NCBI GenBank assembly: GCA_034231615.1
Contig: CM067316.1
Location: 23,955,791-24,019,790, forward strand
Source: Meghimatium bilineatum
Lineage: Eukaryota; Mollusca; Gastropoda; Stylommatophora; Philomycidae
Direction: 5' to 3'
DNA length: 64,000 nucleotides
Under the pieces are notes generated by a model. The model worked only from the letters and a program-made list of their open reading frames with translations, did no database searches and was not told the origin of the DNA. Every line of letters starts with the position of its first letter. The stretch's first letter is position 1. Positions 385-29,673 of this stretch are shown here, in pieces. Made by a program: the position numbers and the translations under genes.

Positions 385-552
385 TCCATCGAGACCAGCA
401 CCGTGCAGAGGTGATGGGGCTTAGTTCAGCCATCAGGGGCTGGAAACTAAGACTGGTCGGGCAGTCCCACTCGAGCAGGACCATAGTCCTGCCCTAGTAA
501 GCAGAGTGCTGAAGACGGAGGCATCCAGCCAAAAGGCGCACAGATAATCAGG
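385..552 (+). promoter_or_regulatory. 5' UTR of the full-length LINE, with two hairpins
   Basis: This 168-nt leader precedes the first ATG of the LINE ORF. It can form a hairpin at about 420-451 (CTTAGTT pairing with AACTAAG, plus CAGCC with GGCTG inside) and a second at about 475-491 (GCAGGAC pairing with GTCCTGC around a CATA loop). LINEs of this type need an internal promoter and may use 5' RNA structure, but no particular promoter box or ribozyme fold is established here. Confidence 0.4.
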
Positions 553-3500: not shown

Positions 3501-4404
3501 CCCGTGGAGTGAAAGCCATGGAATGCCAATATACATTCAGACCCATGTGAAAGGAATACTAAGCGAGGACGAACAGAACAGTGTGCAGCGAATGACAGTC
3601 ACCCTCAGTTTCCTGGATGAGGAATATCCACAAGATATATGGGTCAGAGTGTACACAGATGGGTCAGCACAGAATGCTGTGAGGAATGGAGGTGCAGGTG
3701 TATATATAGAATATCCACACAAGCCTAGAGATACAATCAGAACACCGACAGGAAAATTCTGCAATAATTATGATGCAGAAATCCAGGCAATTAGTGTGGC
3801 AGCTAAAAAACTGCTGAACTCCAACTCTGACCTACAGCCTGTGGTATTCCTGACAGATGCAAGGTCAGTGCTTCAAGCTCTCCAGTCTGGAAAACTAACA
3901 GACTTAAAAAAACTACTTAGCGAATTGTCTTACCAGTATAGGGTAACCATGCAGTGGATACCCTCTCACTGTGGAATACCAGGAAATGAAAAAGCAGACA
4001 AACTGGCTAAGGAAGGTGCTGCCGAAGACCAACCAGATATACCAATCACCTACCATCAGAAAAAACAGATGATAAAGTCAATAAGAAAGCCACAAACACC
4101 AACACAAGATGACTATCACAATATGAACAGATCAGAACAAGTTATAATTCTACGTCTCAGAACAGGACACAACCGACTCCGCAGTCACATGTATACAAAG
4201 TTCAAGATTGGCAACACGGCCATGTGTACATGTGGACAGGCAGCACAGAGTGCCAAACATATACTTCAAGAGTGTTCTGAGCATGAAACGCTGAGGCAGA
4301 CATATTGGCCAGAGGAAACAACACTGGAATCAAAACTCTATGGGACACTGTATGAACTACAAAAGACAGTGAGTTTTATTAAGGAGACAGAATTACAGAT
4401 ATAG
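553..4404 (+). CDS. LINE polyprotein: AP-endonuclease, reverse transcriptase, RNase H
   Basis: 1283 residues with no interruption. The endonuclease spans about residues 72-285 (HWNAEG, QET near 109, GDFNSHSQSWGY at 199-210, GSDHRPV near 275-281). The reverse transcriptase spans about 500-830 (KSPGADG, IDLRKAFDKVW with D647, GVPQGGVLSP, catalytic YADD at 735-738). RNase H has D1036 (YTDGS), E1076 (DAEIQA), D1102 (LTDARS) and the IPSHCGIPGNEKADKLAKE segment with H1139 and D1149. A CxC-x8-H-x4-C motif at 1225-1241 follows. All catalytic residues I can place are present, so the protein may be functional. No separate ORF1 (gag-like) protein is encoded. Confidence 0.95.
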   Translation: MPRTKHNGNMSTSINSYGACPVADVQAGTVPGPIPRKGPTSVTGSPSQLPRGARRQGNRATGQTNKRPIKIMHWNAEGVNSKRDGYSKKLELENVLSEEQVNICCIQETHLSSDIAFKIRGYQCYRSDRKDRRKGGILTLVKNNISACQLEVYMEGAEYQMLQLKTDSAEFHLLNYYCPNDKPLALDTIPDKERLMVCGDFNSHSQSWGYDHIDKRGKELESWQDENNLILINQPADSPTFYSRAWHTTSTPDLAFHSPGLEWNITRVVGKQLGGSDHRPVFLEIHNEFTKDSSTLTRWNYKRADWKMYQHLTSVLAKDMNLDKDINRAVSEFNRCILHAASKTIPRGARKNYKPYWNDELEKLQNEMETSRQQAENRPSQEHHNKYQQTKAKFQRAKLQARRSSWKEKTESLNLERDTRKLWKLVKQLNDEGTGRNTRITLYKDSVILTSKHAADYFADSFAEDNNVKVSPDKQQEVRENQQNIGQGEPIPEVMEAPITMRELEHAISKLKMKKSPGADGVSNEMIRNLGSAARAKLLQIFNTSWSTGNVPQAWREAIMIPLLKSGKDGNTVSNYRPISLTSCLCKTMERIINLRMQWYLESENLLVSQQADFRQCYSTEDQATYLSQEIEDAFQEKKLVLAAWIDLRKAFDKVWKEGLLKKLRNCRVSSRMYKWVKEYLHNRRARVQLDGRKSKKVLLRHGVPQGGVLSPTLFLVYINDLVAELPHGIKVAMYADDLVIWCTEEHATVATKQIQRAIDALTLWANRWCVSINTDKCSTTLFTLSPKQKAGHIKIDGELLKEDKQPTYLGVTFDDKLTWKQHINKATTKARRKLAILRKLSGTTWGASGNILSKVYQQGIRPHLEYGSAAWCPASNTTLQDLDKVQNQALRIMLGAMKSTPIAEMQKMGRMQTLGERRDTKVLIQAEKFQCMPSHPMKERFQNLAMGRLKRSSFIHQAKRLRRQLTDLPEVDSPLRSVPEQTPWSESHGMPIYIQTHVKGILSEDEQNSVQRMTVTLSFLDEEYPQDIWVRVYTDGSAQNAVRNGGAGVYIEYPHKPRDTIRTPTGKFCNNYDAEIQAISVAAKKLLNSNSDLQPVVFLTDARSVLQALQSGKLTDLKKLLSELSYQYRVTMQWIPSHCGIPGNEKADKLAKEGAAEDQPDIPITYHQKKQMIKSIRKPQTPTQDDYHNMNRSEQVIILRLRTGHNRLRSHMYTKFKIGNTAMCTCGQAAQSAKHILQECSEHETLRQTYWPEETTLESKLYGTLYELQKTVSFIKETELQI

Positions 4405-5311: not shown

Positions 5312-5479
5312 GTTGGTTCAGGCTACAGCAAGAAACAGCTGAGAGATTTCAACCAACAGCTTGCTCAATACTGGAATGTATATGACAAAAAGAATCCTCC
5401 CAAACATCTTGAGTTAGCATCAGGATTTAAAGAAAAACCAGATGCATGGTTGCCTCCAAATAAATCTTGCATTGTTCAA
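5312..5479 (+). CDS. LIG4: LIG4 exon A: OB-fold region of the ligase core
   Basis: This exon encodes 56 codons, phase 0 at both ends, beginning [20 protein letters not shown] and ending in SCIVQ. It matches the stretch of DNA ligase IV just before motif VI, in the OB-fold of the catalytic core. The acceptor is AG at 5310-5311, after a T-rich stretch. The donor is GTGTGT directly after the CAA codon. No upstream exon is visible between it and the full-length LINE at 385-4442, so that element sits in the preceding intron or upstream of it. Confidence 0.9.
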
Positions 5480-8400
5480 GTGTGTACACATTTTATTGTT
5501 GTTTTCTTTATTATAAGCTCAGTGTGTTTAATGAATTTTTATTAGAATTTTGTCTACATTATATATTTCTGAGAATTTTTGTGTTTTTTATATTAGACCC
5601 TAAATTCCGTCATTTTCATGCATGCATCTATCAGAAGGTTATATGGGAGCTACAAAACAGAATATGCACATCACACTTGGCTTGTATCTTTTGTCCATAT
5701 TTTTATATGTCCCCATACCTAGATCTGTGTACTGGAGTAATACATTCTACATGTGACAACTTCTGATGAAGTTCATGGCCACACTTCACCTGCTTAAAGT
5801 GAATGTTGGTTATGATCATATTTATTCACTTTGACCAATCAAGTTTGTTCTTACATCTCTTTTTACACAGAACGATATCAGATGTGTACAACATTATAGC
5901 ACATGAATATTTCAGCTGTATACAACATTATAGCACATGAATATTTCAGCTGTATACAACATTATAGCACATGAATATTTCAGCTGTGTACAACATTATA
6001 GCACGTCAATATTTCAGCTGTATACAACATTATAGCACATGAATATTTCATCTGTGTACAACATTATAGCATAACAATATCTCAGATGTGTACAACATTA
6101 TAGCACATATTTCAGCTGTGTACAACATTATAGCACAGACAGATCTCAACTGTGTACAATATTATAGCACAGAAAGATCTCAACTGTGTACAATATTATA
6201 ACACAGAAAGATCTCAACTGTGTACAATATTATAGCACAGAAAGATCTCAACTGTGTGCAATATTATAACACAGAAAGATCTCAACTGTGTGCAATATTA
6301 TAACACAGAAAGATCTCAACTGTGTACAATATTATAGCACAGAAAGATCTCAACTGTGTACAGTATTATAACACAGAAAGATCTCAACTGTGTACAATAT
6401 TATAGCACAGAAAGATCTCAACTGTGTACAATATTATAACACAGAAAGATTACCCAAATGTGATTTATTTGTCTATGAAAAGTTTTTATTTGATCAATGA
6501 AACTCTAATCATCCTCACATCAGCAACCTTTACTTACCCAGATTTGTTTCAGCTCTCGTTTTCTTGAGGCTGTGTTAACATGCAGATATTTGTGTCTCTG
6601 AAATTTGATCCTAGACTGGAAATCAAATCATGACCACTTGACTAGGAAGTAAGTTCACTAACCACTGTGCTGCAGCTTAAAGAAGCTTAACATGTCTCCC
6701 ACATTAATATGCAGCACTCTAGGTACTTTTTAACCATGACTTGTGAATCCCAATGTATCCAAGACCATATATCCACACAAAAACTTGGACGTGTTTAAAG
6801 TGTAAAATAGTTTAGCCATTACTATTTTCTTTGGAGAATAGACACAAGATAGAGATAAAATAAAAGATATCTCTACCAGAATTGCGTTGACATCAAGTGT
6901 GTTGCACCACCTAACAAACATCTAGAAATTAAAAACAATAAGTAAACATACAAAACTACGACTGTTCAACTCCGATGTGATATCAGTGTTGACATATGGT
7001 TGCGAAAGTTGGAAAATGACAAAAGTGCTGGAGAAGAAATTGAACTCATTTGAAAATAAGTGTCTTAGAAGACTCTTAAATATTTGTTGGGAAGAATTCA
7101 AGTCAAACATCCAAGTAAGAGAAGACACCAAACAGCAATATGTTTCTACAACAATAAGAAGAGAATGATGGACTTATATTGTACATGTACTTAGAATGAA
7201 TCAAACAGACTGCCAATACATGCATTAAAATGTGTACCAAATGGCAAAAGAAAAAGACAAAAAGAGACTCTTCGCAAACAACCATTAAAGAGGGTATGAC
7301 TGCAGGTCTCAACAACATACAGGAATTACATACATTAGCATCACATCGCTTCAACTGGACAGCCTTGGTTTCTTTCCTATGCACCGTGTTCAGCTCTGAA
7401 GGAACATAGATAGATTTCTTTTTCACATCTGCTATAATTTTTTATTATTTGTCTTAAATATTGATGTTCTTCTTGTTGTAGTTTCCATGGTATTTTTTAT
7501 ATTTAGCACCTATTCTTCTGTGACTTTACTGGATGAATATACCATCATCCTAACAAACTTATTAATACAAGATACAGGTAATTGTGGATAAACATGATTG
7601 CATATTGCCACTTGTCATTACACTTGATTGGTTGAAATATTGAAAATTTGAAATCTTTAACATACAAATAAAATTGTATAATTTGTATAAAAAGTAAACT
7701 TTATTATTTTTTTAATGAATATGTTCTTTTTGCCAACAGGTCAAGGCTGCAGAAATTATAAAAAGCGATAGCTTCAAAGTAGGATGCACGCTACGTTTTC
7801 CAAGAGTAGAGCAAATAAGACATGATAAGCCCTGGTGGGAATGTATGACAACAGCTGATATTGAAGATCTCAGACAGGTAAGTAAAAAACAAATAAATAA
7901 AGCTGAAACAAAATACAATTTTACTTTTCTATTTTATGTGCAGTATTTTCTTGTATTAGATGTCTTATTAGAATCCAATGACTACAGTAAAAGTAGAGTC
8001 CCCATACCATTGACACCTTTTTCTTCCTCAATCTCCAGTCAGAGTCAGATGTTGACATGGATTTCTTCAATGAATATGTCCGTCAGATTTTTGTACAAGA
8101 TTTTTCAGATGGCCATAGTTTTCATTTAGTACATAGTACAGTGAGCAGTTATATAAAATATATGGTCCGTGTTTTCTGCAGATTGTCCACAGGGTCAAAT
8201 ATCAGTATTATAAATATAAATTGCAATTCTCCTATACATGTGTTATTTGAGTATGTTGTTGGTTTTTCTCAATCTAAAAATTATTGTTCTTTTGTTCCAA
8301 ATTTGTGGAAAGCATTGTCTTTTGGCAGCATGGATTAGTTGAGTTCCATTCCATGTCCATGAAACTTTTAATGATGGGCTCATTTCTGGAAATGATACTG

Positions 8401-11400
8401 TGTCTTCTATTTGTTTTTGCTGGCAGTTATTTTCAGTTTTGGCTAGCTGATCTGCTATCTCATTTTCCCTGATTTGTGATCATTGAGATCTGTAGGGAAC
8501 ACAGATTCAGACTTGTATTAACTGTAAGATAGTCATGGCAAAATCCTATCTATAGAAGAACTGCCTAGTTTGTCCCTGTATCTCTTTGTTAGATTGTTTT
8601 ATGTTTTATTTTGGTAACACATTTACCTATTTTTTTATATCTTGACATTATATTGAATGATGTTTACAGTGAATTGTATATGTAGTGCACATTTTCACAG
8701 AAATAAATCAATCACTTTATAGAAATCAGGAGGAAAACTGGCGGGATCAAGATTTGAGCTAGGAGAGACAGAAAAACCAACCAAAAGGAAAAGAAAAGCT
8801 GGTACCCAGGCAGCACATCCAACATTGATGGAACAGTTTAAGGGGATTAATACTTCTAAAGTAATAAAGGTACTGAAAGAGAATCAATATAAAATGAAAT
8901 TACATATTTAATATGTTTAATATTACATTTTTATAATGTAGTTATTCGAAGTTAAATTTGGTTTAACTCATGTAATTTTTTGAAGTTAAATTTTGTTTAG
9001 CTCATGTCTAGAAGTGATTTGTAGCCAAACATCTCACAAACTAAAAATAAAAACTATTAAGTGTTATTTATCTTATTCATTGTGACATGTCCTTTGCAGA
9101 GAGTTGTCCTTACTGCTATTCCTTTAATGCTTACTGCTATTACTTTAATGCTTACTGCTATTACTTTAATGCTTACTGCTATTACTTTAATGCTTACTGC
9201 TATTCCTTTAATGCTTACTGCTAGTCCTTTAATGCTTACTGCTATTCCTTTAATGCTTACTGCTATTCCTTTAATGCTTACTGCTATTCCTTTAATGCTT
9301 ACTGCTATTACTTTAATGCTTACTGCTATTACTTTAATGCTTACTGCTATTACTTTAATGCTTACTGCTATTCCTTTAATGCTTACTGCTATTCCTTTAA
9401 TGCTTACTGCTATTACTAAGCCTTCATACTTCATATTTTTAATAATCTCCATTCATTTTGTTGGTAGACTTTGGCAGGTGACACAAAGTATATACATGGT
9501 GACCACAAAAAGCACATAAATAATAAAAATCATAATGTATGAAGGCTTGTTTTGATTTTACTTGCAGGCCTTTCTGGCAAAAGTCACGACCGAAGTCTCA
9601 CATCCATGTACTGTCACGGGAAAAATATAACTTCTTGATAGTTGTAGTTTTGTTTTCCTGTTTTCCCCTTGCCATATTTCCATGATGTTTTCTGTAGAGC
9701 CATTGTTTATCTCTTTCTGATCTCTGCTGAACAATCTCCTTTGGATTTTAACGATATATCTGCCTGAGACGTATTCAAGCTTCACGCTTGACTGACAGCC
9801 TGTTAAAAGGTCATAAAGTTGGTGATGTCATGTTAAGATTATCTCCATATGCATGATCTGTGTTGTCAACTAGTACACTTAAAATCTTATTTTTGGCGAA
9901 TTTATGCATATGAGACACAATAACTTTTAAGCACACTGGTATAAGACAATTTCCAGCAATGCATTGTGGACCCCATAGAACATGGTGAGATACATAGAAA
10001 GCTATGGTCATTCATTACATCCAGTTGTCTCAATTTGTCTTTTCACTGGTTTCAAATGAGGTCCAGCAAGAGAGTACGGTCGACACTTTGCTTTGCCTCA
10101 TTTAAATCCAAATCCCTAGTGCAAGTCATTTTTTCATCCACGAAAATTCACAACTTGTCTCAGAAATGTTATCTACATTAGGTGGCAAGAGATTATTTGG
10201 TATCCCTAGCATTGACACTATTCTGATGCAGACACAGATTTGTTTGGCAGGTCATGTAGTATGTATGCCAGATCATGGCTTGTCAAAAATACTTCTCTAT
10301 GGTGAGTCACAGAAGGGCATATGTTCTCAAGGTGGCCAAAAGAAGTGTTACAAGGACTCACTCAAAACTCACTCAAAACCATTGAAATAGACCAAGATAC
10401 ATGGGAAGACGCTGTACAAAAGAGCTACATGGAGCTCTACAGTAAAAAAGGCACAGCATCTTGTGGAAAGAGGAGAAATGCAGCAGCTCAACAGTTGAGA
10501 GTAGCTATAATTTCACAGGTAGATCAAAAACTATCTACAGTCATCATCCCATGTCCAAACTGCCCAAGGATATAGCTGCTAGATTAGGGCTTATTAGCCA
10601 CTTAAAAACTCATAATCAAGGACATAACTCTAACTGAATTTCAAAAGTGGATGTAACAAATGGTCATTATCACTTGTGATGGACAAACAACAACATATTA
10701 GGTTACACAAAAATATTGCCCTAAAACTATATCAACAATAAAAATATCAACAATATGCCAGAATGGTTTCATAAGAGACTTGATTTACATTTACAGGAGA
10801 TGTTGGAGATATGTTGCAGCCAACCTTCGTTGCGGAGACGGCACTTGATGATGATGACTATAGAATGATATTTTTTGTGTAGAAAATATTACTTGACTTT
10901 GAATACAGCGGAATCCCTCTAAAACGCATCCTTTTATAACAAATTTCTTTATTTAACAACACTAGTCAAAATTCTCAGTTATATTTCTTCTTTATTATTT
11001 GTACTGGTATATAGCACATTTCTATTCTTACATGATATTGGTCCAGACCAAGTTATTATAATAGGATTTTACTGTATTAGGTTTCCAAACTATTGGAAGG
11101 CAAGGAATTCTGTGTGATCAATGGACCTGCACACTATTCCAAACAGAACCTGGAAACAAAAGTTGCTGAGCTGGGAGGATTGATTGTACAAAACCCAGGT
11201 AATTAGTTATTTATCCTACCATTAATCAAATAGCTTGAGGGAGAAAGGGAAGCACACACAAAAATGGTGACAATCGAATCTGACATGTATGTCATAAGAT
11301 GGCTAAAGAGGTTTTGAGGATGGAGTTAGCAGTCTCATCTCATAGGTCAGTGACCCAAAATCTATGCTGAAGTCAAATATGTCAAGCCAAAAGGTTAAGA

Positions 11401-14400
11401 TATCACAGTTAAGCTGCAAATCATGACAACACATTCTGGACTATATCCTGCTAGCCAGCAGGAATTTGAGAATGAGTGCTTATAAGTGTTAACATTGTTA
11501 TATTGTTTGTCATACATGAACATCTCAATGGCAGGTTGCTGCCATGCGACATACCTTACCTTTGTCATACAATATTTTCTCATATCGTCTTCGTTCTTTC
11601 TCCTTGTCCATAGTCAACTCATGGTGCATACTGTTGACCACAGGGGCATGTCACAGTGCAGCAGACCATGTAACACCTATGAGTTTGCTATTCAAACAAA
11701 CACAGTGTGCTCTCTCAAGGCCACTTTCGGCATCTGTGGTAGCCAAACATGTAACATTAGGAACATTATTTACACAATTATTTGTAATCACTGCCAGCTT
11801 AAATATATAGGAGAAACTGGCTTGTGAGTTGTTGATTGTTATATGCAATGATAAAAAAAAACTCAGCTGGTGGCCCATTTTAACGCTCCTGACCATAGAG
11901 GCACGTTGGATGCCTCTGTCAATGCCATCTTGTCATACACATCAAGCCATGAAAGTTGTATTTTGACTGAGAACCACCTCATCCATGACATGGGTACTCT
12001 ATGTAACTTTATATTTGTCCATAACATCCTTCTATAATAGCATAACTCTACTGCTTCTAGATGATTGCTTTTGCTTTCTTTCTCACTGCTATGTAAATTA
12101 TAAATTCTAAGAACTCTTTATCTCACTGCTATGTAACTTCAAAGAACTATATCTCACTGTTATGTAACTTCTAAATTCTAAGAACTCTTTATCTCACTGT
12201 TATGTAACTTCAAAGAACTATATCTCACTGTTATGTAACTTCTAAATTCTAAGAATGCTTTATCTTACTGCTATGTAACTGTTATGTAACTTCTATTAAC
12301 TCTCTATCTCACTGTTATTTAACTTCTATTAACTATCTATCTCACTGTTATGTAATGTCTATGACCTCTCTATCTCACTGTTATGTAGCTTCTATTAACT
12401 TTCTATCTCACTGTTATGTAGCTTCTATTAACTCTCTATCTCACTGTTATGTAGCTTCTATTAACTCTCTATCTCACTGTTATGTAGCTTCTATTAACTC
12501 TCTATCTCACTGTTATGTAGCTTCTATTAACTCTCTATCTCACTGTTATGTAGCTTCTATTAACTCTCTATCTCACTGTTTTGTAATGTCTATTAACTCT
12601 CTATCTCACTGTTATGTAGCTTCTATTAACTCTCTATCTCACTGTTATGTAATGTCTATGAACTCTATCTCACTGTTATGTAATGTCTATGAACTCTATC
12701 TCACTGTTATGTAATGTCTATAAACTATCTAGCTCACTGTTATGTAATGTCTATGAACTCTATCTCACTGTTATGTAATGTCTATGAACTCTATCTCACT
12801 GTTATGTAATGTCTATGAACTCTAGCTCACTGTTATGTAATGTCTATGAGCTGTCTATCTCACTGTTATGTAATGTCTATAAACTATCTATCTCACTGTT
12901 ATGTAATGTCTATAAACTATCTATTTCACTGTTTTGTAATGTCTATGAACTATCTATCTCACTGTTATGTAATGTCTATGAACTCTAGCTCACTGTTATG
13001 TAATGTCTATAAACTATCTATCTCACTGTTATGTAATGTCTATGAACTCTATCTCACTGTTATGTAATGTCTATGAACTCTATCTCACTGTTATGTAATG
13101 TCTATAAACTATCTATCTCACTGTTATGTAATGTCTATGAACTCTATCTCACTGTTATGTAATGTCTATGAACTCTATCTCACTGTTATGTAATGTCTAT
13201 GAACTCTAGCTCACTGTTATGTAATGTCTATAAACTATCTATTTCACTGTTTTGTAATGTCTATGAACTATCTATCTCACTGTTATGTAATGTCTATGAA
13301 CTCTATCTCACTGTTATGTAATGTCTATAAACTATCTATTTCACTGTTTTGTAATGTCTATGAACTATCTATCTCACTGTTATGTAATGTCTATGAACTT
13401 TATCTGACTGTTATATAACTTTTATGAACTCTCACTGCCTATAATTTGTTTTCATTATTTTGTTGTCTACATCACTTATGTCTGTCTCTTCCTATAGAGG
13501 ATAACAACTGTATTACAACTCAGACTTGAATTACAACTCTCCAACTGAGCACAGAAATTGTTTACATACAGATTTAATTAGTAATTATATTATTGCTTTT
13601 GAATTAACTTTTCTGTTAGATACTGTGTCTTTTTGTAAGGTAGTTTTTTATTCTTGTATTGTGTCTTTTTTTCTTATTTGCTATACTTGTTTTTAGAATT
13701 TGTGTTAGATTGTTGAAGACTACATAATTCTATGTAATTCTGGTTTGGCGACCTTTTCTTTGCTTGTTTGTCCCTATCTTGAAAAAGACCTTTTGGTCGA
13801 AACATCAATTTGTTCTGTTGTAAGCACCCTATAAATCCTATTTTTAAATAAATATTTATCTACCTATAGGCCCACTGTTGTGCATTGTTTGATAGTGATT
13901 TACATTAAAACTTTACCGGTAAATTGTTTTTTGATTAATATATTCTGAAAAATTAAAGCACAACTATATGACATTCTGACATGGCCACTGTTGCATTTAA
14001 TAATATACTCCAGTATCTATAAAGTGCTTGGGTTCTTGTAGAAAAAGTTACTTTTGTCAGATGTCTAACCACTTATGCACCAACGTCTGCATTTCTTCAT
14101 TGAACCTGAAAGACAAGCTACCATGGTACCCACCTTGAAGTTACTTTTTGGTACTATAGCACACCATTGATGGTGTGATAGTCTAAATTTGACAGATGAC
14201 TAGATGAGCAGCAATGTCACTCACAGTTAATCCGTAGTTCTCCTGTTCAACAGTTACAATTAACTCTAGGAGGCACTACTCAGTGTGCCTGACCTGGTGA
14301 TGAATAGTCTGTCACAGAACTCACACCATTTTGAAAAGTCCTACTCCACTCACATACTCGCCGGATTGACAGGCATCCATAACCATACTGTACCACCTTT

Positions 14401-17400
14401 CATCGAAGAATGTCTATAGGTTTAACTGATTAAAAAATGGACAATGAATGTTGCTTCTCTTTGGTGCATTTCAGTAGTGGGGTGATCATCTTTAAACTGC
14501 CATTATGACATTACATTGCCTTGTCTGCATCAAGATAGCACTTACAGGAGACTCTTAACATCAATAACAACAATTTTGGCAGGCAACAAACACTGTTCCC
14601 TCTAAGGCAAATGGGCAAAAATGTATCTTCGTGGGCTGATAAATTTTGAACACCACATTTTCTGGACTTTTTCTACTTTTTTCTACCAAAATGACACCAA
14701 TTTTTTTCAGCGTGTTCTATTTACACATATTTTTATTATATGGACTTTTACACACAATTATGTACGTGTCTTGTGTGCCAAATTCAAACTGTGTGTGCCA
14801 ATGAATATAAATGTGTTCACTAGCGCATAGTAACGCAGCTTAGTGGGAACAGTGGGTTAATAAACAATGCCATGGTTATTCTAATTTTTAATCACACTTT
14901 TAAGGTTTTCATTTGAAGAACCCTCGTACCAAACTTCTGCTAGTATTGATTGATTGTCTATTTTTAATATTAAATATTCACTCAGATGACATATTATTTA
15001 CAGACTTTAGTCTTCTTTATGGAAGAAATCATGATTCTGAATGAGTGTACCTGCTGCAGTTAAACACACACTCAATAATTCTGAAATATCTCTTGGCCAT
15101 CATCTTGGTCTACTATTTTTTCCTGTTACCAGCAACCATGCCTTATATTACTAATTTTTTTCTATCCTGTTATCTTTCATATGGCTAAAACATCATTAAA
15201 AAAATTTCTTGTTATGTTGTTTAGGAACCAACCTTTTACAACTTTCAATGCTCTTAGCACTTCTTAATTTAAAAATCTGGTCTGCAATACTGTTACTAAT
15301 ATGATGATATTTCACATTTCAGACTTGAGCACTGTCTACTAACATGATGATATTTCACATTTCAGACTTGAGCACTGTCTACTAACATGATGATATTTCA
15401 CATTTCAGACTTGAGCACTGTCTACTAACATGATGATATTTCACATTTCAGACTTGAGCACTGTCTACTAACATGATGATATTTCACATTTCAGACTTGA
15501 GCACTGTCTACTAACATGATGATATTTCACATTTCAGACTTGAGCACTGTCTACTAACATGATGATATTTCACATTTCAGACTTGAGCACTGTCTACTAA
15601 CATGATGATATTTCACATTTCAGACTTGAGCACTGTCTACTAACATGATGATATTTCACATTTCAGACTTGAGCACTGTCTACTAACATGATGATATTTC
15701 ACATTTCAGACTTGAGCACTCTCTACTAACATGATGATGTTTCACATTTCAGACTTGAGCACTCTCTACTAACATGATGATATTTCACATTTCAGACTTG
15801 AGCACTGTCTACTAACATGATGATGTTTCACATTTCAGACTTAAGCACTCTCTGTGTCATAGCTGACAAGTCCACGGTTCGTGTCAACAATTTGATTAAG
15901 AACAACAAATATGACATTGTCAAGGCAGATTGGTTGATTAAAGTTGTTGAATCAATGACATGGATTCCATGGTAAAACTTTCTATTTACAAATATTATTT
16001 TGCCTTAAGAACATATGTTCGGTCATTCGTATAGCAGAAAGCAGACTCACCTCACAAACTCAACTCTGGCTAATTACCTTCGAAAGTTCAGATTGTGCTG
16101 GCAGTACAATTGGATTATTAGTGGCACTTCAAAATGCAACAATAGCTGAATAGCAATGTCCTTATAGGTTATACTTCAATTATTATTTAAGGACATTCAT
16201 CATAAATCATCTCAAGGCTGTATCTTGATAAAGTTTTCAGTATTATTTTGGTTCTGGTACAGCTTTCTATAGTTTCAGGTGATAGTCTTTGTTAGGTCAA
16301 AAGTGGGAGCCTCTTCTGGGATCAGATGGTAGCTATCTAGGTGCATGTGGTAACTTAATCTAAGTGCAGATGATACACTTCTTTAGGTCCATATCTAGGC
16401 TTAAGCTGACACACATGTTATCTGATAAATCAAATAGTGATTTGTTTTCAGTCTAAGCTATCTTTCTACAATGATATCAAGACAGTATATTTAATTGTTT
16501 ACCAAGATCTCCTTGATTGGAGTTTATAGCAGCTCATGTATTCTTGATTTCCCTTCTCTCCCCCCCCCCCTCAATTATTGGACATACATTTCAGTTATTT
16601 CATTTTGGAACATCAGTGCCTCCAGAATGCTCCATCCCATTCTGCAAGAAAAAAAACATTATCAGTCAGACATTCTTTATTAAATGAGCATGGTATTTGT
16701 ATGGCTTAGACCTCAGAGGACACTCTATGAAGATTGTCTCATTATCTCCAGTTGTGGATACATATTGTTGAAGTCTTGTCATCTCTTCTGGCAAGGCAAA
16801 TCTTAGAAACTAAAGGAACAGTATCATCTGATGTTTACAGTAATTTACCATTTGTGTGAACCCAGTGCATGTATCTTATGTGATCATAGTTTCTGTATCA
16901 TTTGTCAAGCAAAATGAATTAAACAGGTTACTAAAACACTTACCTTGCCTATTAATAAAAATATATAACAAAGTATATATAAAAAACATACAATAAAACT
17001 AAACAGGACAATTCTCCACGTATCGGCTCAAATTGAACCTTTTTCAAGAGACAAACACCAGAAAACAACACAATAAAAAACAAAATAGATGACTAGATTT
17101 CATCAAGCCCCGTCTCCATAACGCAGGGATGGCAACGCATCTAGTAAAAGAGAAAATACGTGCATTCATTATGTTTTCCCATGTGATGAAAGAGCCTATG
17201 CTCCTGTGAGTCTGCCTGACATGTATTAACTAACTTACTAGAATCTAGCAGTTGTTTAAATTGAAATGTACAGTGGATTTAGTGTCTTATTTTACACTTT
17301 GTTTTCTTACAGTCCATGCCATGTGCCTTTGGCTAATCATCTCAGTCCACAGCTTGAGCTGTCTAGTGTCTTCTCTCTTGGTCTCCAAATACTCTTTCTC

Positions 17401-20400
17401 TTCAACTTGCCTGTTGTCGCAACATGCTCCATCTTTCCATATCCATGTTACTATCATAATATTCATTTAATATCTCAACCATGAAGGTCTCCAGCAGATA
17501 TGATACATGTAACAGCACGTACACAGAAAGTTTTCCAGCAGGGCTTTGATCTGTATGGTGACAGCTATACATTAGAAACTACTGAAGAAGAATTGCAAAG
17601 TGTGTTTCATAGAATGGTAAGTGGATACTGAAGTAGTCATGGTAAAGCAAATAATGTTTAACTATTTCAAGATGGAATTATTACAGGGATGTAATTATTA
17701 CAGGGATGTAATTAATTTGTAATTATTACAGGGATGTAATTAATTTTAGGTTAAATTTTTGGACCACAACATAATTTAGGCGCAAGCTTCCTGAAGACAA
17801 AGTAGTAGCTCTGGAAGGTCATACAAGGTATTTAAATGAAAAAAGGTGTTGATAATTGAATGTAGAATCCATATACAATATAAGAATTGTAACAACAAAA
17901 TACAAAAACTACACCAGAAACAGGAATGTTAGATGAACATAAATTATTTTTACGTATATTTTGTTCTACTCACCCTCAATTTTACTTGTCTTGAAATGTT
18001 GATATCCAATCTTACTAAAGTAGATGCCTTGACTGTCCATTTACTGATCAAAGTCTGTTTATCTGAAGTTAGATAGTCGTTGGATCATCGTCACTGCACT
18101 CCGGACAAGTCCATAGGTTCTCAGATCTCTCCTTGAGTGTAGCCGCAATTACACGTTGACTCATGGCCCCAGTACACATTTGATTGACTATCATTATTTC
18201 TTGCCCACGAAACAGCTCCTTTCTAGCAACACCACATTTCAAACCAAATTCCTTTATTCTAGTCATGGAATAAGAGTCATCATCACTTACACAGTCATTT
18301 GCTCGTGCATTTTCCCGTAGGGCGTTCAAAATGTCTGCTTGATCCATTGCTCCATCAACAGCCGTAGTAGCCGCATGTGCAGCCAACCTATCTGCACTCT
18401 CATTACCCCGGACTCCCGCATGTCCCGGCACAAAAATGAAAGTCACTTTATGCAAACAGGAATTCTTCACTGAATCCGGCCACTGTTCCCAAATGTATCC
18501 CGCCTGAACTAACTTTCACAATCATGCTCATCGAGTCACAGAGTATGCAAGCGAGCTCGCAGATTGTCTGCAAGCAAACCCATTGCAAAGCTTTGGTTAC
18601 TGCCAAAATCTCCATTGTCATGCTGCTTGTCATCTGAGTGAATGCACCACTTTCCTCTCCGATGGTTGCCCCCCACCTTTGAGCCATGAAGGCTCAGGCA
18701 CTTCTGATGTGTCTCTCAACCGACCCATCTGTATATACAATCATATGACCTTCCCTGTAAATTTCACAGATTAGAGTGAGTACCTCCGACTGTTTAGAAA
18801 GACAAATAATGGAGGGAAGAGTACCTGGGAAGAGGAGAAAGGGCAGACCAAGAAGACAATGGACAGACGACATTAAAGATAACATGAATACATCGCTAGA
18901 AAATGCAAGCCACATCGCCCAAGACAGAGAGAGGTTCAGAGAGTTCATTGGGAAGACAACGTTCTGGAAGGAATACGTCACATGACACCTCCGACTCCAC
19001 CACTGTCAGACACCATTCTCTGCATTCTCTATTTAGTTTTATTATTACTTTGAAGGCTGTCGGACAATCTAAGGGCGCACGACTCCATTCCGCACCAGGT
19101 AGCACATCTTCCAATCTGCACACACTCTGATTTATTTGAAGTAAATCGTGCAACTCCCTAGTGTTTTATGCCATTTTTTTTTATTCCATGTCCAATTTCA
19201 GACCAAAATTTTTTTTGAAAATTAAGGAAATATTCCAAAGTATTTCCAAAGTTGAACTTCATTCCACTCAATATTACCATTAGGTCTAACTCTATTTTTT
19301 GCATAATGTAGTGCAAGATTATCATTGCTGTCACTAGACCTATCTTATTCTTCAGAAACAATAGCAGTGGGAAAGTTTCAGAATTTTGTAGCTGCTACCT
19401 ATTAGATTTTCCTATTTTCAGCAAATCTGTAATCTCCACTGTCAAAATCAAAAACACTAGCAATTTGTCTGCATTTATGTTACCAATTATTACGTACTGA
19501 GCTAGTATCCATTGTAGTACTAACAGAGTTTTTCTAGATAATTCAAAGATATATTTTATCTGATATTGGGAATAAGATTGTCTTTTTTTGGTATTTTGGA
19601 TGGTTTACATATTCAGTTTTACTAAGATAAACATTTAATGTTGAAGGAAGTTGAACCAGTTTGCCAGGAAACCATAGCAGAGCTGGAGGAAGAATACTTT
19701 CCAGATGACTCACCCTATGGTCTTTTTAGAACTTGCAGGTATTTATAACTTTATAACATGGTACAGTGGAATCCCTTTATAACATGTCCCTCTATAACAA
19801 AATTGCTTATTTAACACTATTTAAAATCTCCAATTAGTTTATTCCGTAATGTATATAACTATATTTAGCATATGGTTATTGAATGGTTATCATTAAACAT
19901 ATATATTTCATTGGTCGGGGCCAATTTGTTATAATGGGATTCCACTATATCAACTTTAAAATGTTGAATACCAATTTTTATTTATTAATTATTCATCTTT
20001 CTTGTGGAAGTTTGAAGGTGTTATTACAGAATCTAATGATGTAAACTGTGTTTGTGTATGTATAATATGTGCGATGGTGGTGAAGGTAATAAACAATGTG
20101 ATAATCTGAGAAAGAAAAAAATACTGACACCTATCTTCTTCTTATTCTGTGTTCAGCATCTGTGGTCATGTTATATTGGTAGGACTGTCATCAGGGCTAA
20201 GTCCACTGTCTTCTCCAGGTCAGAGAAGCTGCCCCATAGCTTTTTCCTAAAAATCTGTATTCTCTGGCCATGTCTGCTGATCTTTGTATGTTGGACAATC
20301 CTGAAGTATGTGTTCAGCAGTCTGGGTTCCGGATCCACATGGGCATTCATCTGTGTGTGAGATCCTCAATCAGTAAAGGTGACCCAAAAGTCTGCAGTGG

Positions 20401-23400
20401 CCTGGTCTAAGGTGAAATATTGTGATCTATTGATATCTTTGGAGGTGATGTATTGCCTCACGTTTGTCTTATACTTCCATTTGTTTCTTCCACTTTGATG
20501 TTTATGTGTTCTGGATTACTGTTTTTGTTTCTCTGTAGGGCAGTAGGTGTCTGTAGGACAGTAGGTGTCTGTAGGACAGTGGGTGTATGTAGGACAGTAG
20601 GTGTTTGTAGGACAGTAGGTGTCTGTAGGACAGTAGGTGTCTGTAGGACAGTAGGTGTCTGTAGGACAGTAGGTGTCTGTAGGACAGTGGGTGTATGTAG
20701 GACAGTAGGTGTCTGTAGGACAGTGGGTGTCTGTAGGACAGTGGGTGTCTGTAGGACAGTAGGTGTCTGTAGGACAGTAGGTGTCTGTAGGACAGTGGGT
20801 ATCTGTAGGACAGTGGGTATCTGTAGGACAGTGGGTATCTGTAGGACAGTGGGTGTCTGTAGGACAGTGGGTGTCTGTAGGACAGTGGGTGTCTGTAGGA
20901 CAGTGGGTGTCTGTAGGACAGTAGGTGTCTGTGTTGTTCCATTTTGCTTCATTTTCATGACAGAGCATCCGCTTTCTCATTTCCCATGATTCCACAGTGT
21001 GATGGTATCCATTGACGAGCAATAACTGATGATTTTTGGATATGTCTTAGCTCATGTCTGATGTTGTGCAGAAGGCTTTCAGTTCTGGTATATAGCTTCC
21101 GTGCTTTGATTTTTTCCAGTGTCTTGGTGAGGTTTTGATTTTCTTCTAGGTATTTTTTACTCTAGATGTGACCATTCTCTCCATTGCTTATCTTATGCAG
21201 CTCAACAGACTTTACTGGTCAGTAGCTTGACTTGCTGGTTTTTTTCTATTTGTTTCTTACCTATTGGGATGATGACAGCTTACAACAGAACTAACCTTGT
21301 CGGTCCATTTATCTGGGCCTAGGTCTAAAAAGTTATTTAATTTTTCTGGGCATATATCTAAAAAATTGTTTAATTATGACAAAGAGTTAAAATAATCAGG
21401 GATTTTGGTAGTTAACCCTTTCATTTCCGACTGATCCCCCAAAAAACTTTTAGCTTCATTCCCAGGGCTTCCTGCCGAAGACAGAGGTGTCGGGCCATTG
21501 GCGCAAATAAAGCGGTGACACAATGCATTTCTATTCTCTGGATTACATCCTGCTGGAAATCTTGTACGATCATTGTCCTGCTGCGAGAGAGATCCAGCGG
21601 GAGTTTGAGAATGAACATTGAGGAAGAAGACGATGATTCCCAAGACAAAGGAAAATTTTTGCAAAAATCGGAAGGGATTGAGCAAGAAATTTAATATAAA
21701 ATTCAATTAACAATCAATTTTTATGATTCAAAGTCCAATTAATAAATAAATGGAAGATGTACTGATCTGTGAACATATCTTTGTGAATGTCATGTAAGAT
21801 AAGTTTACTTGTCATGTAACATGCAAGAGGGGGAAAAATGATCATGTTTTATATCAGCTTCATACTTGTGTCAAATTGTTTACTGATAGATGTTCAAATT
21901 AAAGCTGCAAAGCAGTCTCCCTTAAACAACATAATTCTGTAACTGTTAAAAACTCCAAACATATAGGCCTAGTTCACATAAAGAAAGCCCTAGATATCTG
22001 GTGAAACAGGTTTCCAAAAAAAGGATCTTGTTTTTCTGAAAAATGTTGATACCAGCACAAACATTTGTTTGTTCTATGTCTATCTCAAAGATCAACTCAT
22101 GTAGAATTAGGGAAAAATAGGCCTAGTCATAATCAAAAGCAGAGTTCAATCTGGATGAATGTTGTTTACAGGACCTGATTTCTCGTTAATTTGATAAATA
22201 TTGACATAGATCAGCTGTGTTGACTATTCTCAATCATTAGGGGGGGGGGGCGCACACATCATCCATTAAGCCTACACTACAGATCGATGCTAATTTCAAC
22301 TACTAAATACTGAACTACTTCCCATCAATATCTGATTGATTCACATTCTGTAAAATTCCATTTAAAAATTGCCTATCAAAATCATCAGAATCATAAGTAG
22401 GTCCATTCTTATCAAGTTTTGAAGAAAATGTAAGGTCATATTCACAAGTTTACAGTTCCTATATGACACATATTTTTTACGACTGGAAAACAACACTGGA
22501 AGCTGCATTACTGGTAGTCATGTCAGGGTTAAATGTATCATGTCTATTCGCAAAGAAATCATAAAGGACATCAATCTAAATGACAGTTAGTAAATTGGAC
22601 GAGAACGACTGATTCTGGAATTAATATATGGTGGAAGTTTTTGGCAGATAGGGGATTGAATGGTTGAATGAGTTAATGAGGGAAATTAGTTAAAAACAGA
22701 TTTATTGGAATGGGATTCCACTGTATAAACAATAAAGAAGAAATATAATTGCAGATTTTGAAAACTGTTGTTAAACAGAGAAATTTTTAATAAACATATG
22801 CACTTTAGAGGGATTCTACTGTATACATTTAGGAGTTTTTCATAATATTTATAAAATTTTTCCCTCAGAATTTATATTGACAGTTATTTGGTTCTTGGAG
22901 AACCTGACACCCATATTCCAAATTGCCCACTAGATTTGCTACAGCTTGAGTTGCGATTCTTTGGTGCTGTTGTTTCAGACAAGCTTGACGCTGATGTTTC
23001 ACATGTAATTGTGCATGAAAGGTAAAAGATCATTGATATTGTCTAGGATAGTGCTTTTCAATCGCTAGACCATAACAAAATTTCTATCAGGCTGCAAGAG
23101 CCTGTCTTTGGATTTTAAAGTTATTTATGAGCACCAGAGTTTATTTTGACCGGAACCTGGTCTTATGAAAAAATAGGTTCTTGTTTGAAACCTGTGTCCC
23201 ACGGTTAAATTAATTTTTAAATAATTAATTTAATTATTCCCCTTGGCAGTGTTTGTCATTTGATATTTATCAATTATTAATATAACTATTCATTTATTTA
23301 GGGTTTAGGTTTTGTTTGATATAACTAACCCTAAATACATTTATATTAAAATAAAAAATAAACTTAGACTGACAAACATTGCCAAGGGAAATAACCACAT

Positions 23401-26400
23401 CAGGGACATGGGTTCCAAACAAGAACCTAAAAAATATGTTACTGTCCTATGTTTTACAAAAAGTTAAAAATCACTAGTCTAGGAGATATTTAAATTTTTC
23501 GAGCCTTTATATATGTCATACCAAATCATGAGCAACATGTGGGTTGTAATTGCCTGAGTGTTACAGCTAATCGCTGACATAAATTAGGGTCTGTAAACTG
23601 TAAAGACTGTGTTCCACCTCCACATGGTGATCCTGCATAACAAACTCCATCAGGGAAGTTGATTCTTGATTAGAATCTAGCATTATAGCACATAAGACAT
23701 TCCCATAAGTGCTCCTCTCTCCATTCCATCAGCCATTGGAGAATATGTAGACTCAAAATTCCCAGTGAGGTGTTGATTACATGATCTTTGGTTCTTCCAA
23801 AAAGAGTACATTTTCTTCCTTCACCTCTAATCAGTTCCATTTCTGTCATTCTTTGTCATTGTCAGCATCTTTGTGATGAATTTATGACAGGTTTAATTAA
23901 GTCAGCTTTATATCTTCTCAGTACTGTGACATCAATCTCAGCATTGCCTACCAATGAGTCAGCTCTTTCATTTCCTCTGACTCCAGCGTGACCTGAGCCA
24001 GTATACTCATGTAATGCTCTGTAAAATTGAATTTTTCAATAATGCAAACCCATTCCTTTCTCAGCATGTTTTTTTCTATCTTGCGCAGCATGCTCTGAGA
24101 ACAAGTGGGTTGATGTATCAGTTATCAAACCAATTTAGTGCTGCTGTAACTTCCTCTATCTCCATCCTCATGCTCAATGTAATAGTGGAGTATGCAGATA
24201 GTGGAGTATGCAGATAGTGGACTATGCAGATAGTGGAGTATGCAGATAGTGGAGTATGCAGATAGTGGAGTATGCAGATAGTGGAGTATGCAGATAGTGG
24301 AGTATGCAGATAGTGGAGTATGCAACAGGTAGACTTATGTAAAACACAGGTTTATATTCCGTTTCAATGGGACACCACAGACTATATCTAAAACTAGTGG
24401 GTAATGATGGGCAATGATGAGCACACAAGAAATCATAAAAATTACAATACACAAATCACATTCAACGTTTCAACCAAAAGGTCTTTATCAAGACACAAAC
24501 AAAACATCAAAAGACGACGAATGGAAAAATTATCACAACGTCCAAAGGAAATATGGAAATGATATGCCGGAAGGTCAGAAAGTACATAAAATGTAAATAT
24601 ATGTGGAAACGAAATGAACAAAAAGATGAGTAAATGACGGAACAAAAAGAATAAAGACAAAGACCACACCAACCCAGTACTAGACATAAGAGTGGTCGGA
24701 ATAGAGTCCAAAAGGCTTGAGTGTACCCAATTCAAAAATGAGACGATTTTCTAGAGCATACCTAGATCTATCATCGGTGGTGCAAGATCTGATGGCGGTG
24801 ACCTGTATGCAGAAGAACAACTGTTTAGCAAACCTGCTTCAGATTTAAAGGTGAAATGAAAGTAGAGATAAAGTACAACTGGTAGAGCATTTCTCTCCAA
24901 CTAAAGTTATTCAGGTTTTTTTTTTAAATCTGAAAATTTAGTTAGGAATCATCATCATCAAGTGTTGTCTCTGCAGCGAAGGTTAGTTGCAAGTTAGGAA
25001 TATTGATATTTAATTGAATTATAACATTTACTAAGGGCATTTATAGAGGGAATAATAGAATAAGGAATTATAACATTTACTTTGTTAGTTAAAGCTTATG
25101 TAATCACTTGATGTAATCTATAATTTGCACACATTTTCTAATTCAACTATTTAATATTCTTTCTTATAAGCATTCTTCATCTAAGAACTGTATATTTGTT
25201 AATCTAATTTACATTTTCTGGTCTTTTTTCACCAAAAATTATATATAAATTTGGGAAGGTTAATATAAAAATATATCAAACATTGTTTCTTTAGTTATTT
25301 CACAATTTTACTGCACTTATTTACATAAAAATTTGTGTTTTTTGTTATAGAAATTTTATATATATTTAATAAATATAAATTTATATCAAATTTAAAATAA
25401 TAAATGCTATATTTCTATAAAAATATAAAGATTTTGTTATATTAACCTGTAGTCTACAAATCTCATCTATTGATAGACAACTGATGTCAACAAATATCTA
25501 CATTGAGGTAGCTATTTGTAGTCATGGACAACAAATAGTAAGTGTATGCTAGAGTTATTGTTTCTTAGTTTTCCGCAGCGATATAAATACGTAGTCTAAT
25601 TTATAGACCTTTCATGTTTGGAAACCGAAATGCGTAGACTCCTGCAGAGTCTATGTTGTCATTGTCTTGGTCGTGTCAAGAAACAGAGCTGGAACTAAAT
25701 CTGTGGCGCAGATGTATGTTGCCGGCCCAAAAGGGGAGCAAAGAATAGCACCACTGTTTACCTTCTATGCATGCTGTAAAAGGGGACAAAGGAGGTTATG
25801 GGGTGGACTTGAACCCATATAGGGTCAAAGTGACTATGAAGCCTTATGTCAAAAGGCGAAGATATCACAGCAAAGCTGTAAAATATGTCACAATGTATTC
25901 TGCTCTCCAGACTACATCCTACTAATTTGCAGGAGTTTGAGAACGAACACAGTAGAAGAAGAATAGGCAACCATGAGGCCTCCTGCTAACAACTTAATTG
26001 ATTGAGACGGCCCTCCAGCTTCTGAGCATATGACACAGAATATGCTCTTCTGATCGCAGAAGAAATGCAGACATATGCACAGTGAAATTCCACTAACACA
26101 CTTGATCTGGACCAACAAAATATGTATGTAATAACAGAAATTTACTATATACAGTACAAGTAATAAAGAATAAATATAATTGGAGATTTTGAAAAGTGTC
26201 ATTATATAGGAAAATTAGTTATTAAAAGAATGAACTATAGAGGGATTCCACTGTATATACTACTCTTATCCCTGTTGATAAAAAAAATGGAAAAATCATC
26301 CATGAAGATTCTTTAATTTGAGGTCTTCTTAGTCCATACATAGTCAAATTCCATTATAACAACTTGGTCTGGAACAATGAAATATTCATGTGATCACAGA

Positions 26401-26930: not shown

Positions 26931-27384
26931 ATACTACTGATTTTAGCAAATGCATGCTCTGATGATGGTCTTCCTGTATTGTTACAACAGTCTCAGTGAT
27001 AGTTATGCTTACAAGTTACTCCCTTTAAGATAGAACTTACTTGAGTTAACTCATATCTTCAAGCAGTTCTCATGCTGGAAACATTTTTTCCAGTTGTTGG
27101 AAATTAGACAGGAGCGACCAAGTAACTGTCATGGGCAGAGGCACCAAAATGAAGTTATTTTATATGAAAAGGGTAGTGGAGCTTGCTCAGGCCGTCAAAG
27201 TTCCTAGTTTCAGCTCTGGGATTACATTTTATCACAATTTAATTTAATTTTTAACATCAATTAAATGTGTGTGTATTTATCACACGTGAAATTTTGTGAA
27301 CTTTTAGTTTTCCACAAGATATCAATAAACCCCTAAGGCATTAGTAAATGATCTGGGTTAACTTTACAATAAGCCAGCAGGATG

Positions 27385-27535
27385 TGTGCCCCCTTTCATA
27401 CCCACTGACCATTTAAGTGTCATAAGTGTAATTCAAGGGCCATACTCGAGACCAATCAATTGTCATTAGCATAATTCAAAGGGCACAAACAAAAAATTGC
27501 AAGGTCACACAAGAACTGACAGAATAAATTCCTAC
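27385..27535 (+). repeat. Dispersed repeat downstream of LIG4
   Basis: Similar to the reverse complement of 38717-38875: CCCCCTTTCATACCCA, CAAGTGTCATTAG-like blocks with ATTCAAGGG, and AAGAACTGACAGAATAAAT. Its AATAAA (27523-27528) could serve LIG4 polyadenylation. Family unknown. Confidence 0.55.
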
Positions 27536-27734
27536 AGAACAAGTCAGTGCATGCTCTAAAACATTAATTTTCTTACGATCTAAATATGTTCAATTTATAA
27601 TTCTAATCATATAACCGAGCTAAAGTAGATCTACCAATAAATTATTGCTACATTATTGCCCATATAAGTTTATTTTGCAAATTTATTTTTTTCAAATTAA
27701 TTTTATAAATTAACAAATTTAATACTTATCTCAT

Positions 27735-28050
27735 CCTGTGACATATTCTTTCCAGAACGTAGTTTTCTTTAAGGATTTTCTAATCACCTCGCGATCTTAG
27801 GCAAGTTGACCTGACATTTCAGGGACATGTTTAAACAGTCAGATATATCATTTGTCCATCATCATCTTGGGCAACCTCTTCTTCTGCTGCCGTTTACTCT
27901 GTCTTCTGCTATTAGTCATTCCATGCTGTTATATCTCTTTAAATACCCAAAAATGTTCAGCTTTCTTGTTATAATGTTATTTAGGAGCCAGCCCTCTTCA
28001 ATGTTTAATGATTGTAATACTTCTTTGTTTGTAATAATTTAACACTATAT
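27735..28050 (-). mobile_element. LINE-C RT C-terminal fragment
   Basis: The minus strand encodes LQSLNIEEGWLLNNIITRKL and NIFGYLKRYNSME, then RVNGSRRRGCPR, and ends in the inverse of the [13 protein letters not shown] terminus (GACATATTCTTTCCAGAACG). Frame breaks are present. Same family as 18792-18986 and 39630-39830. Confidence 0.7.
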
Positions 28051-28440
28051 ATAGTAAATAAAGTAATGTGATTGCTAAATTAACATTAAAAATAACTATA
28101 TTACCTTACCTGTATAAATATTTAAATTCAGCAATCATCAGTAATCCACAGAGAAAATGAATTTTGCAGTTGTTTTTTTGCAAACTGCATGCAAGATTAA
28201 TATAGTAGTGAAAGTGTTAACAATTGCCTGTCTGTAATATATAGAATTTGAATTTTCAGTGTTTTGCTTCACTAGTGTCCAGATTGAGATTCCCCTCAAC
28301 ACCATATAATTAAATCAGTGGCTAGGTAATAAATGTATCTGGTCAGTAATGCCCACTGAATGATCACTGTGATAAGGGGAAAGATAATGTCTTCATGGAA
28401 GCAATAAATGTCAGACTGTTACTAAAAGTTTAACTTTATA

Positions 28441-28613
28441 CAGTGGAATCCCATTATAAAAACTTGGTCTGGACCAACAAAATGTGTATGTAATAACATA
28501 AATTCACTATATACAGTACAAATAATAAAGAATAAATAAATTGAGGATTATGATAAGGTTTGTTATATAGAGAAATTAGTTATTTAAGAATATGTTACAG
28601 AGGGATTCAATTG
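28441..28613 (+). mobile_element. TA-flanked MITE copy f
   Basis: Starts CAGTGGAATCCCATTATAAA after TA, ends GAGGGATTCAATTG before TA. 173 bp. The inner block ATATACAGTACAAATAATAA is common to the family. Confidence 0.88.
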
Positions 28614-28639
28614 TATATAGAAATTTCAGGTGTGTTATG

Positions 28640-28800
28640 TTTAGCTTTTGTTATGATTTCTGAACATTTCTATTCTAATATTAACAATAACAAATAAACA
28701 CCATTTGATTTTGTGGTTTAATTCTGTATTTATCCATTTCTTGATAAAGCTCTCTTGGTTGAAACATTGTTCCTGTGTATTGTTCCACAAAAAATGCTAT
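28640..28800 (+). mobile_element. Penelope-type 3' end fragment
   Basis: A hammerhead-like core at 28740-28765 (CTTGATAAAG, then CTCTCTTGG, then TTGAAAC) in the same setting as 13700-13870, including ATTCTGTATTT upstream. No ORF part is kept. Confidence 0.45.
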
Positions 28801-28822
28801 TTAACCTTTATATATATATATC

Positions 28823-29673
<851 letters not shown>

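Follow-up and report, generated by a model that had tools for sequence, protein, structure and literature searches.

In a gene for DNA ligase IV (LIG4), the junction of intron D and exon E has become a minisatellite in which 13 head-to-tail copies of a 43-bp unit each carry the end of the intron and the start of the exon, and only the last of the 13 predicted acceptors keeps the conserved protein in frame. Our preferred reading, to which we give a probability of roughly 0.7, is that the array is a minisatellite of the kind called a mirage (a name reportedly originating with Canestro et al. 2002), that it was formed by slippage or unequal exchange, that it is largely tolerated, and that copy 13 is the acceptor mainly used. 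Mirages are minisatellite-like duplications of exon-intron boundaries and have been described in the amphioxus Adh3 and globin genes (PMC3087553). Positions are those of the window (the whole stretch of 64,000 nucleotides that was analyzed) unless another locus is named, and the features are collected in Table 1.

The array comprises exactly 13 x 43 bp (559 bp). TRF reports it as 13.2 copies with 98% match over 15289-15853, and the extent given in the earlier note proved exact to the base. In each unit, 28 nt of intron end, closing with CAG, are followed by the first 15 nt of the exon. Copy 1 has TACTAAT as its branch motif and copies 2-13 have TACTAAC, the AG and the 15 exon nucleotides are present in 13/13 copies, and the pyrimidine stretch is short and weak (TTTCACATTTCAG), so the unit has the content first described for it. 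There are five distinct unit sequences. Nine copies (2-9 and 12) are identical, and copies 1, 10, 11 and 13 differ from them by 1, 1, 2 and 3 bases, respectively; the observation that the 13 acceptors look alike is borne out by this near-identity. The identical copies suggest recent turnover of the array. When an 83-nt two-unit probe was searched against the 1.61-Gb, 32-contig genome, 12 matches were returned, all within the LIG4 array, by a search that skips very common words.

Among the few differences between units is a codon that reads CTC (Leu) in copies 10, 11 and 13 and GTC (Val) in copies 1-9 and 12. At this position Leu is found in 4/5 named heterobranchs aligned, while Physella and the other named gastropods have Phe. 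Because the Leu of copy 13, as against the Val of copies 1-9 and 12, matches these four relatives, copy 13 is probably the ancestral copy. The left flank of the array (ACTGTT) has a short, imperfect similarity to its right end (ACTCTCT), which could have been the seed of the first duplication. No unusual RNA structure was found in the array, which folds less stably than 100/100 shuffles (z +3.6). Masking of the upstream acceptors by RNA structure was rejected for this reason.

Table 1. Positions of the LIG4 exons, of the junction array and of the repeated junctions at myosin-head exons (L loci in their own coordinates; a slash marks the splice junction).
Feature	Position	Strand	Description
LIG4 exon A	5312-5479	+	
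LIG4 exon B	7740-7877	+	
LIG4 exon C	8723-8869	+	
LIG4 exon D	11081-11198	+	start of BRCT1; donor CCAG/gtaatt, phase 1
Minisatellite	15295..15853	+	13 x 43-bp units; each combines a branch motif with a pyrimidine stretch, an AG and the opening 15 nt of exon E
Copies 1-12	15295..15810	+	upstream acceptors, all leading to DLST(V/L)Y-stop
Acceptors 1-12 (first exon base)	15323, 15366, 15409, 15452, 15495, 15538, 15581, 15624, 15667, 15710, 15753, 15796	+	
Copy 13	15811..15853	+	joined to exon and probably the ancestral copy; variants TTA and GTTTCAC; Leu (CTC) shared with several relatives
LIG4 exon E	15839-15971	+	133 nt as read from acceptor 13; remainder of BRCT1
LIG4 exon F	17487-17616	+	nearly all of DNA_ligase_IV motif
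LIG4 exon G	19647-19738	+	
LIG4 exon H	22869-23021	+	
LIG4 exon I	26795-26930	+	
L052 donor array	L052:381-602; copies at 406, 441, 476, 519, 562		five tandem copies CTTGTTAGAAAAG/GTAATC, first joined to exon
L092 donor array			three copies TTCAG/GTA; two extra with GTAGG, not GTAAG; runs past fetched end
L093 donor array			ATTT/GTAAG; four copies with GT, one with GT lost
L083 donor array			14 bp x 2.1; CACAG/GTATGT twice; either copy may be native
L075 donor array	TRF start 430; GT at 428		33-bp array starting at the donor GT; seven GTAAG; intron letters only
L090 acceptor array	L090:60-259		51 bp x 3.9, 81% identity; upstream copies without AG in place

Exons A-I (5312 to 26930), when joined, give a product of 404 residues from the C-terminal part of DNA ligase IV. 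The product matches solved human LIG4 chains over residues 506-898 (E 1e-94), and it contains the ligase C-terminal domain, the DNA_ligase_IV motif and two BRCT stretches (by Pfam matches of the joined exons), with homology over its full length. Upstream of the window (L015-L018), 10 more LIG4 exon cores were found that encode catalytic parts, one of them with KYDGER, which we take to be the ligase active-site motif. Some short stretches, e.g. human ~343-365, are without a match among the exon cores. The gene spans ~66.5 kb, with intron D of 4640 nt and intron E of 1515 nt. The closest proteins among the 120 matches listed are a transcript-sized record (77%) and the heterobranch LIG4s of Aplysia (72%) and Plakobranchus (70%). 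Judged by these matches, the array-bearing exon is part of the DNA ligase IV gene, here that of a heterobranch-like gastropod, and the gene was named correctly at the outset.

Other features of the surrounding DNA were recorded. A long open frame of the non-LTR retrotransposon type, in which endonuclease, reverse transcriptase and RNase H are all represented by domains, lies in a LIG4 intron (487-4404), and another stretch of LIG4 intron, at 25571-28841 in the joined coordinates of L015-L018, holds 68 copies of a 48-bp unit. Due to the unit length being a multiple of three, mechanical ORF calling gives long open frames there. On the minus strand at 47702-50392 there is an 896-codon open frame with a 147-bp tandem duplication (49419-49717), for which no Pfam match was obtained at E 0.001.

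The consequences of using each acceptor were derived by translation of all 13 junctions with exon D. From acceptor 13, the frame continues into the conserved stretch of BRCT1. The predicted product is colinear with human LIG4 with no gap at the junction, and 10/10 aligned homologues (7 named gastropods and 3 further records) agree in length at this place, reading QNP-(5 residues)-CV. From any of acceptors 1-12, the reading would be VQNPDLST(V/L)Y followed by a stop, which is the seventh codon if the codon split by the junction is included, because the stop codon sits in the branch motif of the next unit. Exon length would be 133 nt from copy 13 and 176-649 nt from copies 1-12. As exon E begins within BRCT1, truncation would remove the remainder of this domain along with BRCT2 and the DNA_ligase_IV motif (model residues 247-279). 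The earlier note was therefore right that the last acceptor alone keeps the frame and that the others meet a stop within the next branch motif; its wording that only this acceptor gives BRCT1-BRCT2 stands for the frame but not for the whole of BRCT1, which begins already in exon D.

We propose that a first tandem duplication arose across the junction of intron D and exon E, and that it expanded recently to 13 units via replication slippage and/or unequal exchange in a genome rich in tandem arrays. The twelve extra copies would lie on the intron side, and the spliceosome would mostly use copy 13 because no other copy adjoins the authentic body of the exon, and because the next donor is 133 nt away from it, as exon definition would favor. 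Splicing to the upstream acceptors would give the longer exons with an early stop, and these RNAs would probably be degraded; there is perhaps minor leakage to copies 12 and 11.

Human data bear on this choice from both directions. In these data, 250 nt serves as the mark for exon definition, and the preference for the upstream acceptor is significantly reduced in long-intron settings (PMC9225289). Introns D and E are both longer than 250 nt, which places exon E in the exon-definition range with reduced upstream preference. Note, however, that the human data show an overall preference for the upstream 3' splice site, that long introns only lessen this preference, and that competing 3' sites of similar strength show no clean switch to the downstream site; shorter exons were favored in the matching analysis of 5' sites (PMC9225289). 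Two alternative 3' splice sites that are occupied together can also inhibit splicing (PMC5389562). Copy 13 is the likely main acceptor, though not securely so, since it gives the shortest exon and has the amphioxus precedent. Given the human upstream preference, the equal upstream acceptors could well be used too. The array may come at a modest cost or influence dosage modestly; arrays also become sparse near acceptors, as described below, which points likewise.

Tandem repeats were counted in a genome sample of 16 pieces of 10 kb at preset positions (160 kb in total). Using a period of at least 10 and at least 4 copies, 44 arrays were found in the sample and 8 in the 66.5-kb LIG4 gene. At a looser threshold, arrays cover 22% of the sample pieces (16.8% without one all-satellite piece) and 13% of the LIG4 gene. 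One preset-position piece (L034, C13:15000001-15010000) is a single 27-bp satellite from end to end, with ~380 copies. Other minisatellites in LIG4 introns are found in the window at 5866-6450, 9109-9414, 12081-13433, 20532-20932 and 24182-24324, and each of them is more than 60 nt away from the nearest exon core detected; among the 19 LIG4 exon cores, only exon E has a junction array. Motif counts were also made genome-wide. Pairs of CAGGTAAGT separated by 12-42 nt (tandem strong donors) number 1321, versus 528 for the reversed pattern, a comparison that serves only as a guide because real donors raise CAGGTAAGT over its reverse and one array is counted repeatedly. The 100 matches listed correspond to 25 separate loci on two contigs. 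Tandem TACTAAC-TTNCAG motifs show a modest excess (719 versus 512 for the reversed control), which was rejected as decisive evidence since such arrays may be unrelated to exons.

To place the LIG4 array among the junctions of this genome, 67/67 myosin-head profile matches, all from one protein family, were collected with 250-bp flanks. Arrays were listed up to 40 nt from the profile-match edge for 60 loci and up to 120 nt for the remaining seven, and junction arrays were judged by eye. The TRF row for L052 begins outside this range and this array was found by reading the sequence, so weaker cases can be missed. Repeated junctions were found at 6/67 exon matches, with 5/67 on donor sides and 1/67 on acceptor sides. 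Expressed over all junctions, this is 6/134 (95% interval 1.7-9.5%), or 5 without L075, and the strictest count, for which the array must include exon letters and the splice dinucleotide, is 5/67. The six exons all score as Myosin_head and lie on six different contigs. LIG4 was accordingly rejected as a singular case, and the idea that this gene had been singled out could not be kept. The L052 array is the donor-side mirror image of that in LIG4, and the degenerate array of acceptor and exon start in L090 may represent an older state of an array like that in LIG4. A reading that continues beyond the native donor runs into a stop in each of the four arrays whose frames were examined (L052, L092, L093 and L075). 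None of five ligase-family exons (L009-L012 and L014) has a junction array.

Five further loci were considered and excluded from the count. In L058, L067, L097 and L101, the arrays start roughly 7-25 nt past the donor. The array of L082 (minus; 89-222 in coding orientation) has a 35-bp TTCCAG..TACTAAC unit and ends ~30 nt before its acceptor, with the last TACTAAC placed as a branch site.

Array coverage was also profiled around the myosin-head exon matches, whose edges merely approximate the positions of the junctions. Inside the matches it is 0.5%, and in the 250 nt downstream it is 10-17%. Upstream, it climbs from 2.7% over the nearest 25 nt to 12-14% at 101-200 nt, with 9-12% farther out at 201-250 nt. 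Constraint that acts on the branch site together with the pyrimidine tract, or on additional AGs upstream, fits this gradient. The difference between 1/67 acceptor and 5/67 donor sides is not significant alone (Fisher p 0.21); the findings suggest that repeated junctions are frequent on the donor side in this genome and rarer on the acceptor side. The drop in coverage near acceptors, together with the loss of AGs in L090, suggests that acceptor duplications are harmful, in which case 13 intact ones may be non-neutral. With arrays thinning beside acceptors, the 13 intact acceptors are the unusual part of the LIG4 array.

These considerations lend something to the proposal that copy number acts as a rheostat, a tuning that the earlier note held to be possible. 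The extra acceptors would divert splicing to stop-containing exons or jam the 3' splice site, and array length would thereby determine the amount of full-length ligase IV. The 12 upstream acceptors hardly differ from copy 13 and without exception lead to an early stop, array coverage is low beside acceptors, and both the human preference for upstream sites (PMC9225289) and the inhibition by dual occupancy (PMC5389562) would act in the required direction. We nevertheless regard such regulation as unlikely, as mirages, including the acceptor-type array of the amphioxus globin gene BflGb6, are reported to be without effect on regular splicing (PMC3087553, PMC3902484), and because repeated junctions in myosin genes argue that the array structure is not a LIG4 adaptation. 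The same units could instead be imagined as a selected splicing enhancer, in which the series of branch sites and pyrimidine stretches would attract U2AF/U2 and so aid recognition of the weak acceptor of a 4.6-kb intron. The short pyrimidine stretch and the placement of the closing TACTAAC in L082, as the branch site of a true acceptor, are in keeping with this, but the tandem motif is only modestly above its reversed control and array coverage beside acceptors is low, not high, which makes selection of this kind improbable.

A stage of intron gain or exon re-shaping, with an array copy turning into an alternative exon, has been put forward for the amphioxus globin mirages (PMC3087553), and repeat-driven intron changes are known from human paralogs (PMC2812944). 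For LIG4 we hold it to be very improbable, given that the only GT after the exon piece of the unit is GTCTAC, which read by eye is no convincing donor, and that every upstream exon piece hits a stop in the frame offered by exon D. Tandem arrays are prone to mis-assembly, as happened with one amphioxus mirage (PMC3087553), so the repeat number could be wrong or the array absent from the animal. The assembly, however, is chromosome-scale (32 contigs), 559 bp is short for any long read, copies 1, 10, 11 and 13 carry diagnostic variants, and comparable arrays are common in this genome; an artefact is the least credible of the explanations. The mirage-type reading, with copy 13 mainly used, is thus the one that we retain.

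Were several percent of junctions in this genome to lie in mirages, with those on the acceptor side selected against and LIG4 holding an extreme intact one whose copy number varied between individuals and set the amount of full-length ligase IV, an end-joining gene would provide a naturally occurring series of many copies in which 3' splice sites compete; we consider this combination quite unlikely. The 13 near-identical acceptors, of which the last alone is predicted to be productive, are a natural test of spliceosome choice among equal 3' splice sites. Reed and Maniatis (1986) are said to have used duplicated splice-site competition constructs and to have found that exon sequence and proximity decide. 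Those constructs reportedly resemble LIG4 in having identical tandem splice sites but were engineered, whereas the LIG4 array is a natural 13-copy series. Repeated junctions, described case by case in amphioxus, also become countable genome-wide and testable against RNA.

The earlier note knew of no described case with this many copies in a DNA-repair gene; that no such case at all is described does not hold, because junction minisatellites are known in amphioxus. In addition to Adh3, where units are 10-72 bp and somatic instability was observed, and the globin genes BflGb6 and BflGb9 (PMC3087553), cases include troponin C and PGBD5 (PMC3902484). The mirage of BflGb6 has 6 and 3 units in two haplotypes and is made of the 3' end of an intron and the 5' part of an exon (PMC3087553). 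Results on Adh3 and from RT-PCR indicate that mirage genes probably keep their regular splicing (PMC3087553, PMC3902484). Human genes in segmental duplications have variable internal tandem repeats at exon-intron boundaries, averaging 30-bp units x 4, which can alter splicing (PMC2812944). These are boundary minisatellites as in LIG4, but they belong to recent paralogs with exon changes and newly formed introns, and that account, in its available part, includes no amplified single acceptor in a repair gene. For earthworm metallothionein, the minisatellites described are intronic, not junction arrays (PMC12783039). Our literature search returned no mollusc mirage, which is no proof of absence.

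Like LIG4, the amphioxus mirages have boundary-spanning tandem units, many copies with AG or GT, and an authentic copy joined to the exon, and BflGb6 is likewise an acceptor-type array. Its units are 150-160 bp with 81-100% identity (n=6 and 3), whereas those of LIG4 are 43 bp and nearly identical (n=13). The amphioxus examples come from a cephalochordate with splicing seen by RT-PCR, and the LIG4 array, from a mollusc, was read from genomic DNA. None of the amphioxus mirage genes in the available accounts is a DNA-repair gene, and their unit numbers are lower. The LIG4 unit contains both intron end and exon start (28 nt + 15 nt), its length lies within the 10 to 160 bp of the described cases (PMC3087553), and of its 13 AGs, whose use is predicted, acceptor 13 alone preserves the conserved protein by sequence. 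It therefore joins the known kind and looks like a mirage, a striking case of an oddity already described and not the first of its sort, which differs from known mirages in its mollusc host, its place in a repair gene and its 13 intact acceptors.
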